DNA of 64,000 nucleotides, from NCBI GenBank assembly GCA_014728215.1, contig WJLZ01000185.1, positions 62,001 through 126,000 of the forward strand, read 5' to 3'. Every line of letters starts with the position of its first letter. Position 1 is the first letter of the stretch. The DNA is from Chitinivibrionales bacterium (GTDB lineage: Bacteria; Fibrobacterota; Chitinivibrionia; Chitinivibrionales; WJKA01). A model generated the notes under the pieces. The model worked only from the letters and a program-made list of their open reading frames with translations, was not told the origin of the DNA and did no database searches. Below are positions 21,089 through 27,390 of the stretch, piece by piece. The translations under genes were made by a program, and so were the position numbers.

Positions 21089-22063
21089 TTAAAAAACCGA
21101 GAAATCAAAGTATTTTTTCGGATTTTCCTGAACATCGGTTACTAAAACATTGATACTTCTTAAGGTAGATCTCAGATCCTGAACCAGGGTATCAGTCTGT
21201 CCCAGGCCAAAAAGACCGTCTCCGTTTTCCATGCGTCCGATAAGCATTGATACCCGTTCGAAAGCTTCGGTTGCATTGGCATACAACTGGGGATCCTGAG
21301 TCAGCCTGTTAATTGTACTCGAGGTATCATTTAGGGAGCGGCTGAATTTACGCAGTGAAGATGTCGTTGCAAGGAACTGATTATAGAGAGCCGGACTTTC
21401 AACAAGCTTTTTGAATGTTCCTTCGGATTCCTGAACATTCCCCAGAATGCTGGAGAGGCTGTTTACGGTACTATAGAGTTCCTGATAGAATTCAGGATTT
21501 CTAATCAGTTTTGCAATGCTTCCTTCTCCCTTTTCAATATATGCCACGATACTGTCGAGACGGGATAAAAAGCTCTGCACTTCTGCAATCGACTGGGTAC
21601 TTGTCTGAAGAATATCTTCAAACTCAACAGCCTCTTTCCCCTCGATTCTCTGCCCTGGATCCACAAGAGGGGCTTCCCTGCTCCCCGGGTTGATTTCCAC
21701 ATATTTGTCGCCCAGAATACCGATAGTCCGGATATAGGCCTCTGCATTTGCGTGAATATAGTTGAACGCATTACGGTTGACAGAAAATGTAATCAGTGTC
21801 TGTCCGTTACTGAATTTGATATTTTCGACGGTGCCGATTTCAACGCCCAGGAGCCACACCGGAGATCCCGGACGAAGGCCGCTGGCATTCTCGAACAGTG
21901 CCGAAATTTCATCCCGTGGCGTAAACAACCTGCTTGCAACACCGGAAAAAAACACTGCCGAAAAAAAGATCAAAATGCCGAGACTGATGATTATCCCTAC
22001 TTTAAGGGCCGACCATGCAATAATTTTTCGACGATCAAAGAGATTTCGTTCTGTTTGTGCCAT
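21089..22063 (-). CDS. mlaD: MCE/MlaD-family lipid transport protein
   Basis: The 324-aa substrate-binding subunit of a Mla-type phospholipid transporter is anchored by one N-terminal helix (IIAWSALKVGIIISLGILIF) and exposed to the periplasm. The MCE domain (about 40-125) contains LRPGSPVWLLGVEIGTVE and GDKYVEINPGS. A long helical tail (about 130-320) replaces the short end of E. coli MlaD and may form the hydrophobic tunnel seen in longer MCE proteins. The ATG of MAQTERN is used; a longer TTG frame overlaps the end of mlaF. Confidence 0.9.
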   Translation of the reverse strand: MAQTERNLFDRRKIIAWSALKVGIIISLGILIFFSAVFFSGVASRLFTPRDEISALFENASGLRPGSPVWLLGVEIGTVENIKFSNGQTLITFSVNRNAFNYIHANAEAYIRTIGILGDKYVEINPGSREAPLVDPGQRIEGKEAVEFEDILQTSTQSIAEVQSFLSRLDSIVAYIEKGEGSIAKLIRNPEFYQELYSTVNSLSSILGNVQESEGTFKKLVESPALYNQFLATTSSLRKFSRSLNDTSSTINRLTQDPQLYANATEAFERVSMLIGRMENGDGLFGLGQTDTLVQDLRSTLRSINVLVTDVQENPKKYFDFSVF

Positions 22064-22079
22064 AGTAGTCTTTCCCGGT

Positions 22080-22814
22080 TTAGTATTTAAGCGCCTGTTC
22101 GACAAACTTTTTTACCGACTCCTTCTGTACATTTTTCAGACTGCTTTCATTGCCGTCAACAACAATCGATCCCTTTTCTAAAAAAAGAAACCGTTGTGCA
22201 GTCAACAGAGCATCAGACACACTGTGCGTTACAATAATAAAACCTCTCCCATGGGAAGAAAGATCATTGATGATATTCCTGATAATTTCAGCATTCACCG
22301 GATCGAGATCTGCAGTCGGTTCATCATAGAGAAACATTTTTGATCGCTCGGTAGCCAGTGCTCTGGCTATCGACACGCGGCGCCGCATTCCTCCGCTCAA
22401 CTCTTCGGGCATGTACTCGATCGCATGTTCAACACCCACCGTCCCAAGCAGCTTTCTCACTTTTTCTTCCAGTTTGACAGGATCGTTCATCCCTGCCTCC
22501 CGCAAAGGGAACGCGATATTATCCCCAACCGTCATTGAATCGAATAAGGCGCCCTGCTGAAAAACAACTGCAAAGCTCCGCCGTATCTTCTGCAATTCTT
22601 CCTCGCTTTTATCGTTTAATATATCGTTACCAATACGAATAATGCCGCTGTCCGGCCTTTGAAGCCCAATTATCAGGCTGAGTATCGTGGTTTTTCCTTC
22701 CCCACTGCCTCCAAGAACAGCCACCCGTTCATCAAAGGCAATTGAAAAACTCACCCCATCCAGTATTGTACGATTACCGCGAGCGAAAACTACTTTGTCA
22801 AAAACTATCATCAA
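22080..22814 (-). CDS. mlaF: MlaF-type ABC transporter ATPase
   Basis: The 244-aa ATPase drives lipid transport with MlaE and MlaD. The Walker A is GGSGEGKT, the signature is LSGGMRRR with the Mla-typical MRRR, and the Walker B is MFLYDEPTADLDP. The switch His lies in VTHSVSD. The start overlaps the mlaE stop by four bases. Confidence 0.93.
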   Translation of the reverse strand: MMIVFDKVVFARGNRTILDGVSFSIAFDERVAVLGGSGEGKTTILSLIIGLQRPDSGIIRIGNDILNDKSEEELQKIRRSFAVVFQQGALFDSMTVGDNIAFPLREAGMNDPVKLEEKVRKLLGTVGVEHAIEYMPEELSGGMRRRVSIARALATERSKMFLYDEPTADLDPVNAEIIRNIINDLSSHGRGFIIVTHSVSDALLTAQRFLFLEKGSIVVDGNESSLKNVQKESVKKFVEQALKY

Positions 22815-23596
22815 ATACTTCCCAACAAATAAAGAATCAGTTTGGTGATGACAAAATCGAGAAGAATAATTACGATTACCGAATTAACAAAAGCACGAGT
22901 AGTCGCCCGTTGTAATCCGGTTGCTCCTCCTGTTGTTGTAATGCCGGTATAGCAGGAGATAAGCGAAATACATAATCCAAAAACCGCCGGCTTAATTGCA
23001 CCCGGCAGTATCCATCGTGGGTGAAGTGTTACGATAATCTGATTCCAGTACACAACCGGGCTCTGATCGCTCATAAATACTGCAACATAGGCGCCGCCGA
23101 TCAGGGAGGTTATATCACCGATAAAAGTCAAGGCAGGAAGAATAATTACGCCGCTTATTACCCGGGGAACCACCAGTTTCTTCAGCGGATCAACGCCATA
23201 TACCCGTAACGCATCAACCTGCTGATTTAACCGCATCGAACCCAGCTCCGAGGCAATTCCCGCCCCAACTCTTCCTGCATACACAATAGCGATAATAACC
23301 GGGCCGATTTCACTGATTATTGCCGTACCGACAACCTGACCGGTATACATTTTCAGCCCCATAACCGATAATTCGGTGATAATCTGTAATGAAAGCGCCA
23401 TGCCGATAAATGCAGAAATGATCACGACAATGAAAATCGATCCTGTTCCTGCATTATCCATATGCAATAATGTTTCGAAAATATAGGAAGGGCGTTTGAA
23501 TATTCCGGCAATCGAATAAAAAGTCATTATATAAAAATCTTGAAGCTGCCCAATAAATTTTTTTAAAGAAGCCAGTTTCATTGACTTTACATTCAC
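22811..23596 (-). CDS. mlaE: MlaE-type ABC transporter permease
   Basis: The 261-aa inner-membrane permease has five to six helices. Conserved MlaE blocks are GRVGAGIASELGSMRLNQQVDALRV (here with all the typical Gly and Glu residues) and the Gly-rich CYTGITTTGGATGLQRATTRAFV near the C-terminus. It moves phospholipid between inner and outer membrane. It starts 18 bases after the AmrS-like gene, so lipid transport and the radical SAM protein are probably co-expressed. Confidence 0.93.
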   Translation of the reverse strand: MNVKSMKLASLKKFIGQLQDFYIMTFYSIAGIFKRPSYIFETLLHMDNAGTGSIFIVVIISAFIGMALSLQIITELSVMGLKMYTGQVVGTAIISEIGPVIIAIVYAGRVGAGIASELGSMRLNQQVDALRVYGVDPLKKLVVPRVISGVIILPALTFIGDITSLIGGAYVAVFMSDQSPVVYWNQIIVTLHPRWILPGAIKPAVFGLCISLISCYTGITTTGGATGLQRATTRAFVNSVIVIILLDFVITKLILYLLGSI

Positions 23597-23614: not shown

Positions 23615-24667
23615 CTATTCGGTTGCATTCGATCCCACCGGCTGGTGAACTGCTATTTCCTGTCCCCAGACTCCGGCTATTTCATGGTTACACGAAGGAC
23701 ACGATGAATTATGGATGTTGTTTTCCACAACGGTATCGCCTTCCCGCTTAATAAGCAGTGTGTTACAGTTGGGACATAAGGTATTTGATGCTACCAGTGC
23801 ATTACCGATATAGACATACTTGAGCCCGGCTTCTCTCCCGATCTGCTGTGCACGTTCGAGTGCATGCAGTGAAGTCGGCTGAACATCCATCGCATTATAA
23901 TCGGGATAAAACCGGTTGACATGCCACGGAATATCCTCCGATATGCCGGCAATGAATCTCGCAATGTCCTTGATTTCTTCTTCACTATCATTCTGTTCCG
24001 GAATTATAACCGTCGATATCTCCAGCCATAACCCGAGTTTTCTCATATGCGCAATAGAATCGAGCACAGGCTGCAGCTTGGCACTACACACCTTGCGATA
24101 AAAATCATCCCTGAAAGATTTCAAATCCACATTACAAGCATCGAGAAACGGAGCAATTGTATCAAGCGCCGGAGTGGTCATGTACCCGTTGGTCACAAAA
24201 ATGTTCTTCAGATTCCGCCGTGATGCCATTCGAGCAATATCAAAAGCATATTCAAAAAATATTGTGGGTTCGGTATATGTGTAGGTAATGCTTTTACAAC
24301 CATTTCTTTTCGCATGCCGTACAACGGCCTCAGGAGTTAACGGAGTGCCGGCAATTTCACCATTGTGCTCCCCATGCAAAGAAGACTCAAGGCTTTGACA
24401 ATAGGTACACTTGAAATTGTTTCCCTGCGCAGCAATCGATGCTGTTTTTGTTGCAGGAAGAAAATGATACATCGTTTTCTTTTCTATCGGGTCGATATCC
24501 CGTGCAATTACCTCACCATAGGCATAGGTAATCAAATCACCGGAAATATTCTGACGCATCTCGCAGAAACCATACTTCCCCGGTTTGATCAGGCAATTGT
24601 GGGCACACAGAAAACATTGGGTTAGCGAGCCGTCTTGTTTTTCATACAGCATTGCCTCGTGATCCAT
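23615..24667 (-). CDS. amrS: AmrS-like radical SAM protein with altered cluster motif
   Basis: The 350-aa protein matches the AmmeMemoRadiSam system radical SAM family: an N-terminal Cys motif CFLCAHNCLIKPGKYGFC (18-35), the barrel with TYTEPTIFFEYA, and a C-terminal zinc-ribbon-like CPNC...CPSC ending GVWG. The radical SAM motif normally reads CNFxCxxC, but here it is GNNFKCTYC: the first cluster Cys is Asn83 (codon AAC), leaving Cys87 and Cys90. Activity is therefore uncertain. No Memo or AMMECR1 gene is in the window. The ATG with GGAG upstream is chosen over an earlier TTG. It heads the mlaEFD operon. Confidence 0.82.
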   Translation of the reverse strand: MDHEAMLYEKQDGSLTQCFLCAHNCLIKPGKYGFCEMRQNISGDLITYAYGEVIARDIDPIEKKTMYHFLPATKTASIAAQGNNFKCTYCQSLESSLHGEHNGEIAGTPLTPEAVVRHAKRNGCKSITYTYTEPTIFFEYAFDIARMASRRNLKNIFVTNGYMTTPALDTIAPFLDACNVDLKSFRDDFYRKVCSAKLQPVLDSIAHMRKLGLWLEISTVIIPEQNDSEEEIKDIARFIAGISEDIPWHVNRFYPDYNAMDVQPTSLHALERAQQIGREAGLKYVYIGNALVASNTLCPNCNTLLIKREGDTVVENNIHNSSCPSCNHEIAGVWGQEIAVHQPVGSNATE

Positions 24668-24862: not shown

Positions 24863-25056
24863 CTGCAAAATCATTTTCACTGATTTTTGTATGCATTACC
24901 ATACTAACCGGGTCATTAACAACAAACGGCGCAGTTCTCTTGAGATTGGTACAATTATTGATGTTTATTAAGGATTGCAAAAACAGGAATATAACCTATA
25001 TATATCCGTATTTTCATAAAGCTTTGAAGTATGCGATAATTAAAAACGAAAAAATA

Positions 25057-27390
25057 ATGCACGGAAAAATAAACACTCTCTTATTCCATTTCAAGTGGCT
25101 CCGGCGTCTTCTCAAACGCCGTTCTCCGGCCGGACGTAGAAACCCGCCGGGATTGATACTCATCCAGGTTGACGGTCTTTCGAAAAGCCAGTTTGAACGG
25201 GCTCTGCAAAACAAACGGATGCCCTTTATCAGCAGACTGCTTAACCGCGAGGACTATCACCTCTATTCTCATTATTCCGGTCTTCCTTCAAGTACCCCCT
25301 CAGTCCAGGGCGAGCTTTTTTATGGCGTGAAAACATCGGTCCCCTCCTTTGGATTCAAAGACAGGGAAAAGAAGCATATAACGTCAATGTTCACCCGTAA
25401 AACAGCGACCGCGGTCGAAGAAAATATTGCCCGGAAAGGCGAACCGTTGCTCAGTGACGGGAGTTCTTATGCTGATGTTTATACCGGAAGTGCACGGGTG
25501 AGTCATTTTTGTCTGAGTTCATTTCATCAGGGGCCAAAAGAATTCATAAATTCAATCCCGGGAATGTTCCGCTCACCTTACAGCATGGTTTTGTATGTCG
25601 CCGCTTTCGCCCGGGCTGCCGTTCTAACCGTAATTGAGACCGCTCTGGCAGTGATGGATTTTCTTCGTGGAGTGCTGACCCGCCACAGTTTTGTAAAGGA
25701 ACTTTCATTCATTCCCCCTCGAATCGCCATTTGTGGCATTCTTCGTGAATTTGTAAAGGCTCATGTAATGAGCGACATTTCCCGGGGCATTCCGATTATT
25801 CATGCCAATTTCCCCGGCTACGATGAGCAATCTCACCGACGAGGCCCATCATCATCTTTTGCCCACTGGACATTACAGGGCATCGATGCATCGATAGGTG
25901 CAATCTGGCATAAAGCACACGCATCGTCAAAAAGAGAATATGATGTCTGGATCTATTCGGATCATGGTCAGGAGGATACCATACCCTATGGAAAACTCCA
26001 CAATCGAAATATATTGGAATCTGTCCGGGATGCAGCGGCAATAGCCGGTTTCGGTGCCGACTTTTCCCATAACCCTTTTCAGAGTATCATGCGAAAAAGG
26101 ACTGTTCTTTTGTATCCCGGAACCGAACAGCAGAATGTAACGGCAATTTCGGGGCACAACAGCAATGCATTGGAGATGGCCGGACTGGGACCTTTAATGC
26201 ATATCTATTTTGAAAAGGAAATCGATCAGACTGCAATCAAAAACTTTGCACACGCATTAATCGACCATGCAGCCATCCCGCTTGTTCTGCAAGGGAAAAA
26301 CAGCAACAGAATCACGGCTCTGAACAGCACCGGTGAATGGCAATTGCCAAAGGATATCGATCGTGTTATCGGCCAGGATCATCCTTTCAAAGATGAGATT
26401 AAATATGATCTGATACAACTCGTTCACCATCCAAATGCCGGAGATCTGATTATGTGCGGCTGGCAACCCCATTCCCAGGCAATCAGCTTTCCTCACGAAA
26501 ACGGTGCACATGCAGGACTGGGTACCGAAGAGACCCATGGTTTTTGCTGTACACCAGCCTCTGTACCCTTTAATGAAATTACCGGGCGCTCCTATCTCCG
26601 ACCCCTTGACATACGAAAAGCGGCATTGCAGCATCTTGGCCGTGCACCGCTTATTCGTAAAAAAGACGCAGTCTCGGCAACTGATTCACACTTGCGTATA
26701 ATGACTTACAACATCCACAGCTGTATCGGTATTGACGGCACCGTATCACCCGAACGGGTCGCACGTGTCATTGCCCGGTATAACCCGGATATCGTCACTC
26801 TGCAGGAACTCGAATGTAATCGTAACTATACGGGTAATGTCGATCAGGCCGATACCATAGCACGACTTCTGGATATGAAATTTCATTTTCATCCCGCAAA
26901 TGTGTTTGAGGATGGCGTTTACGGCAATGCTGTCCTCAGCAAACGCCCAACCAAAAAAGTCCGCACAATATCTCTTCCCGGATGGCATAAAACCGAACCG
27001 AGGAGCGCCCTTTATATAAAGCTCAACCATGGAGGAAAAGAATTGTCGGTTGTCGCAACCCACATGAGCTTTTATCCTGCCGAACGCCACCAGCAGTGTG
27101 AGTATTTGCTTTTCGATCAGAAAATCGGGGAACTCGATGCCTGTGTGGTATGTGGGGATTTCAACATGGTACCCCGATCCAAAACATACCGGATGATCAC
27201 ACAGGTTTTTCGGGATGCCCACACGGCATCCTATTCGGGAAAGAATCGTACCTGGATGGGACTTACGTGTCTTGATTATCTCTTTGTGAGTAAAGGAGTG
27301 GAAGTCAAAAGTATTACCGTTCCCCGCGATTCATTTATACGAAAAGTTTCAGATCACGCGCCGGTGATAGCCGACATAATCATTCGATAA
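25057..27390 (+). CDS. Alkaline-phosphatase-superfamily phosphodiesterase fused to EEP nuclease/phosphatase
   Basis: The 777-aa protein has two hydrolase domains. The first (about 28-440) looks like a type I phosphodiesterase/nucleotide pyrophosphatase: metal Asp in LIQVDGLSK, SSTPSVQGE with the likely nucleophile, YSDHGQED and a late His in GHNSN. A hydrophobic insert (about 170-205) may touch the membrane. The second (about 545-777) is an endonuclease/exonuclease/phosphatase domain with MTYNIHSCIG, TLQELE, CGDFNMVP and the final SDHAPV, all catalytic residues present. A phospho-lipid or nucleic-acid substrate is possible. The start is uncertain: ATG at 25057 or 24961, neither with a good ribosome site. 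Confidence 0.82.
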   Translation: MHGKINTLLFHFKWLRRLLKRRSPAGRRNPPGLILIQVDGLSKSQFERALQNKRMPFISRLLNREDYHLYSHYSGLPSSTPSVQGELFYGVKTSVPSFGFKDREKKHITSMFTRKTATAVEENIARKGEPLLSDGSSYADVYTGSARVSHFCLSSFHQGPKEFINSIPGMFRSPYSMVLYVAAFARAAVLTVIETALAVMDFLRGVLTRHSFVKELSFIPPRIAICGILREFVKAHVMSDISRGIPIIHANFPGYDEQSHRRGPSSSFAHWTLQGIDASIGAIWHKAHASSKREYDVWIYSDHGQEDTIPYGKLHNRNILESVRDAAAIAGFGADFSHNPFQSIMRKRTVLLYPGTEQQNVTAISGHNSNALEMAGLGPLMHIYFEKEIDQTAIKNFAHALIDHAAIPLVLQGKNSNRITALNSTGEWQLPKDIDRVIGQDHPFKDEIKYDLIQLVHHPNAGDLIMCGWQPHSQAISFPHENGAHAGLGTEETHGFCCTPASVPFNEITGRSYLRPLDIRKAALQHLGRAPLIRKKDAVSATDSHLRIMTYNIHSCIGIDGTVSPERVARVIARYNPDIVTLQELECNRNYTGNVDQADTIARLLDMKFHFHPANVFEDGVYGNAVLSKRPTKKVRTISLPGWHKTEPRSALYIKLNHGGKELSVVATHMSFYPAERHQQCEYLLFDQKIGELDACVVCGDFNMVPRSKTYRMITQVFRDAHTASYSGKNRTWMGLTCLDYLFVSKGVEVKSITVPRDSFIRKVSDHAPVIADIIIR

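Follow-up and report, generated by a model that had tools for sequence, protein, structure and literature searches.

Loss of the first cluster cysteine in an AmrS-like radical SAM protein of a Chitinivibrionales bacterium

An AmrS-like gene leads an Mla-type operon

We analysed a 64,000-nucleotide stretch of a Chitinivibrionales genome (here called the window) that holds a gene for a radical SAM protein with an unusual cluster motif. The open reading frame, its strand, its coordinates, and the NNFKCTYC motif that an earlier note had reported for this DNA were all reproduced from the sequence. The gene heads an Mla-type operon, and the same block is found in a sister species (locus L005). The features of the locus are as follows.

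23615 to 24667, minus strand: AmrS-like radical SAM protein of 350 amino acids, a TIGR04337 member with the first cluster Cys replaced by Asn
24470 to 24475, minus strand: residues 65 and 66, Thr-Met, where the family has Pro (112/112) and mostly Leu (DPIEKKPL), from the alignment
24419 to 24421, minus strand: codon 83, AAC for Asn, aligned with the first cysteine of CX3CX2C, from the alignment and phmmer
24374 to 24430, minus strand: degenerate cluster loop, residues 80 to 98, AQGNNFKCTYCQSLESSLH (family consensus xxGCNFxCxFCQNxxISQx), from the alignment
22811 to 23596, minus strand: MlaE-family permease (PF02405), starting 18 bases past the AmrS stop
22080 to 22814, minus strand: MlaF-like ABC ATPase (PF00005), overlapping the MlaE stop
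21089 to 22105, minus strand: MlaD-domain protein (PF02470)

The description of the product as an AmrS-like radical SAM protein was supported by two profiles. The protein scored 302.8 bits against NCBIfam TIGR04337 (AmmeMemoSam_rS; cut-off, 220) and 67 bits against Pfam Radical_SAM PF04055 (cut-off, 29.5), its TIGR04337 score being lower than that of its orthologue at L005 (344.5). TIGR04337 is the radical SAM enzyme (AmrS) of the AMMECR1/Memo/radical SAM (AmmeMemoRadiSam) system. The window protein resembles this family in sequence, fold, and length, in its N-terminal C-x2-C-x3-C-x9-C set (C18, C21, C25, and C35, all intact), and in its C-terminal CxxC...CxxC ribbon, where C298, C301, C323, and C326 are present as the earlier note had claimed. 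It differs in lacking the first cluster Cys, N92, I95, Q97, and P65, and in the position of its gene, which is not linked to Memo or AMMECR1 and lies with Mla-type genes instead. Since the score and the fold agree with TIGR04337 but the cluster loop fails, the protein should be called AmrS-like and not AmrS.

The gene order atpA-atpG-PFK-AKR-MlaD-MlaF-MlaE-AmrS is common to the window and L005. We found the MlaE-MlaF-MlaD block at no other locus among the 100 searched by tblastn (L036-L135), several of which have short flanks and some of which carry no gene of this AmrS clade. The single Mla-type matches in that set were one MlaE (L073, 4.6 kb away) and an ABC-ATPase in nine loci, which can be explained by how common this domain is. 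The window also encodes, at 24940 to 27390 on the plus strand, a divergently transcribed 816-amino-acid protein with a type I phosphodiesterase-like domain (PF01663) and an endonuclease/exonuclease/phosphatase domain (PF03372).

Departures from the family are concentrated in the cluster loop

The window protein matched 40 of the 60 genomes searched as relatives, its own genome included. Our alignment comprised 114 rows, made up of 33 loci from the relative searches, 80 further named loci, and one fragment (L040) from the same-family genome G002, with relatives' matches that had no locus left out. Row L032 stops short of the motif, and 112 other rows cover position 83. The earlier note had placed Asn83 (AAC) where the first Fe-S ligand should be, and the alignment bore this out, with Cys in 112/112 other rows and Asn only in the window protein. 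By phmmer, N83 stands opposite the first motif Cys of the PFL-activating enzyme (QGNNFKCTYC/QGCLMRCLYC). Two of the three cysteines of CX3CX2C are present (Cys87 and Cys90).

The same note had described all other family motifs as intact. This did not hold, as P65, N92, I95, and Q97 are lost as well, residues that are conserved in 112/112, 112/112, 111/112, and 110/112 of the other aligned rows, respectively. The family DPIEKKP reads DPIEKKT in the window protein, and the QNxxISQ that follows the cluster Cys reads QSLESSL. The substitutions in the loop are C83N, N92S, I95S, and Q97L. Kept are Gly82, Asn84, Cys87, Cys90, and Gln91, together with the TYTEP, NGY, and DLK stretches. No replacement Cys was found in the window protein at any alignment column where the family lacks Cys. 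The four commonest residues at the columns of His98 and His101 do not include His.

We counted departures at conserved columns. With the window and L005 set aside, 50 columns are at least 97% conserved across the full rows. L005 departs from the family at one of them and the window protein at six (P65T, C83N, N92S, I95S, Q97L, and L220V). A leave-one-out count over 56 columns again gave 6 departures for the window, whereas the other 110 rows averaged 0.43 and none exceeded the 4 of the divergent paralogue L003. When the threshold was set at 93%, L003 had 8 departures, spread over the protein, and the window had 7. Within residues 60 to 98, at columns at least 90% conserved, the window protein had 5 departures and any other of the 110 full rows had 2 at most, an excess far beyond chance. 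Four of the six departures fall within residues 80 to 98 (hypergeometric P = 0.007). Comparing departures inside and outside residues 60 to 98 between the window and L005 gave Fisher P values of 0.10 to 0.44 at four thresholds, which are not significant alone. Outside residues 60 to 98, each of these two proteins departs at 6 of the 89 columns that are at least 80% conserved.

The sister orthologue and other members of the phylum have the cysteine

Only one other genome of the genus was searched; its syntenic orthologue, L005, is the nearest relative of the window protein (63% identity), and the motif there, GCNFRCSFCQNWRISQ, has the Cys. The comparison with relatives' orthologues, which had been named beforehand as the refuting test, was run and found Cys in all relatives examined. 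Together with the other near-invariant losses, this points to a lineage-specific loss and not to an error.

Across the phylum, a pattern search found the Cys version in 23/167 genomes and the non-Cys version in 1/167, namely, that of the window, where non-Cys means a codon 83 not beginning with T in an NFxCx[FY]CQ context, a definition that other types of loss escape. A second genome with the non-Cys motif so defined was not found among the 167. Within the source genome, the Cys pattern occurred only in a truncated copy, described below. In G002, the copy of this clade at L040:4946-5636 (plus strand, C23) stops resembling the family at about residue 148, no more than 130 bases from the end of the contig. 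This may be either a truncation or an assembly artefact.

The source genome has other AmrS copies

The source genome has one Memo (PF01875) and one AMMECR1 (PF01871), both on contig C80, outside the window. The AmrS beside them has an intact motif and scored 355.7 bits against TIGR04337. At L038:5831-7450 (plus strand, G000:C80), a single open frame of 540 amino acids holds both Memo and AMMECR1, an apparent fusion, and many AMMECR1 matches in the order are also in single frames of about 460 to 520 amino acids. A third, divergent TIGR04337 member (GCTLKCSFCQNF, 287 bits) is found at L038:12671-13555 (minus strand, G000:C80), about 7 kb from the Memo/AMMECR1-linked AmrS, and adjoins an ORF that is endonuclease III-like by eye.

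The source genome carries another AmrS from the clade of the window gene, at L039:4651-5145 (minus strand, G000:C117). It has an intact GCNFRCDFCQNWQISQ, its match ends after about 138 residues, and it abuts a hemerythrin-domain ORF (PF01814). Contamination was considered as the source of this truncated copy and rejected, as C117 pieces gave tetranucleotide correlations of 0.92 to 0.96 with pieces of the window, C185, and C80, compared to 0.77 to 0.83 with two G002 pieces. The copy looks to belong to the same organism.

AMMECR1 is present in 34/40 genomes of the order, that is, in 22/22 of those with the Cys pattern versus 12/18 of the others. Several Cys-pattern genomes (e.g., G005, G015, G026, and G028) have only one AmrS match, and it is of this clade. 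This implies that the clade can probably serve as the AmrS of the AmmeMemoRadiSam system. Since the source genome has an intact AmrS beside Memo and AMMECR1, the activity of the window gene would probably be redundant there, and we infer that the other copy can stand in for it.

The predicted fold is kept and the protein appears constrained outside the loop

In the AlphaFold2 model, the window protein keeps the radical SAM fold (partial TIM barrel). The mean pLDDT was 91.0, compared to 94.6 for the canonical homologue L056 predicted from the same 43 rows. By segment, the values for the window and L056 were 85 versus 90 for residues 81 to 90, 59 versus 81 for residues 91 to 100, and 76 versus 74 for residues 101 to 110. 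The cluster loop is therefore less well defined in the window model than in that of L056. The closest solved fold is the PFL-activating enzyme (3cb8 and 3c8f; Z of 24.9 and rmsd of 2.1 over 225 residues), from which the window protein differs in sequence (16% identity), in its extra N- and C-terminal Cys regions, and in lacking the first Cys.

Between the window and L005, dN was 0.29 with synonymous sites saturated over the whole gene, and synonymous change could be computed for 9 of 16 sliding windows and was at least 1.27 in each. The neighbouring genes gave dN values of 0.17 to 0.42. A quick tree did not give the window a faster branch (tip length of 0.32 versus 0.38 for L005). The constraint outside the loop fits a folded protein that is still constrained, although the pairwise dN takes in time before the loss, which may be most of the total, and does not isolate selection afterwards. 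Compensating frameshifts around the loop were considered and rejected, as the codon comparison with L005 gave in-frame substitutions and no indel.

Probable loss of radical chemistry

The earlier note had left three options, namely, a novel form of cluster binding, lost radical chemistry, and a sequence error. Taken together, we believe that lost chemistry is the best supported, with a probability of about 75%, the protein being either a retained pseudoenzyme or in early decay. The CX3CX2C cysteines are the ligands of three cluster irons, and changing one of these cysteines in PqqE (C32S) abolished reductive SAM cleavage, according to PMC5715301. The window protein is a true orthologue of an AmrS-type clade from which, in this one lineage, the first cluster cysteine has been lost together with the loop conserved around it. 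Without three Cys ligands, no working [4Fe-4S]-SAM centre would be expected, so that cluster and activity have most likely both gone, leaving a lineage-specific pseudoenzyme; the Cys sets outside the loop, the predicted fold, and the majority of the other invariant residues are retained. The activity was probably dispensable, given the intact AmrS found with Memo and AMMECR1 on C80, and redundancy with this paralogue is probably the cause of the loss, which is known from one genome.

One form that lost chemistry could take is simple decay, in which a redundant gene came under relaxed selection, the loop was the first part to go, and no function remains. We give this somewhat less than an even chance; as a sub-case of lost chemistry, its share overlaps with the figure above. 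The intact AmrS elsewhere, the second same-clade copy already cut short beside the hemerythrin gene, and the G002 copy that departs from the family near a contig end would all fit such a course. However, decay does not readily account for losses that cluster in the loop, for an open frame with both Cys4 sets intact, or for a number of departures outside residues 60 to 98 that equals that of L005. A selected pseudoenzyme is a slightly less likely form. Here, the cluster would be gone and the remaining protein may still bind SAM, a partner, or a metal; its fold might regulate the Mla-type operon that it heads, serve that operon as a scaffold, or compete for a shared partner with the intact AmrS.

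It is improbable that the cluster is still bound through Asn83, a new His (98 or 101), or an external third ligand, with radical or altered chemistry kept. Such binding could draw on the retained loop residues and stretches and on the two His at columns where His is uncommon, and non-Cys Fe-S ligands do exist, though rarely, as stated in PMC5715301. However, the cluster-adjacent N92, I95, and Q97 are lost, confidence in the predicted loop is low, and the single Cys change in PqqE was enough to abolish SAM cleavage. The absence of a replacement Cys, the less defined predicted loop, and the further losses, including that of QNxxISQ, thus favour loss of cluster and chemistry over an alternative mode of cluster binding.

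An assembly or base-calling error in this MAG is very unlikely: the assembly is fragmented (229 contigs, 3.41% contamination), but the three base changes in one codon, which the earlier note had rightly set against an error, are joined by four further independent near-invariant losses within 33 codons, each requiring separate base changes. The frame of 350 codons is open, without a frameshift, and its flanks are clearly orthologous to L005.

A copy that has lost the cluster Cys is uncommon, though not without precedent. NCBIfam TIGR04150 (pseudo_rSAM_GG) presumably comprises radical SAM relatives without the cluster site and is a precedent for the kind; it resembles the window protein, by name, as a radical SAM relative without an active cluster site and differs in being another subfamily. 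This model had no match in the source genome at an E value of ≤0.001. By title and abstract, we found no report of an AmrS without a cluster cysteine in the open-licence papers searched, and "pseudo-rSAM" and similar phrases were absent from them. Radical SAM proteins of Memo-Ammecr1 systems receive a passing mention in an excerpt of a published survey (PMC7159879).

The finding is a warning for annotation, as the TIGR04337 profile calls this protein an enzyme despite the missing defining residue. A cluster-loss variant whose predicted fold is intact, found with an intact copy in the same genome and a Cys-bearing orthologue in the sister species, offers a natural pair for testing what the fold does without radical chemistry.
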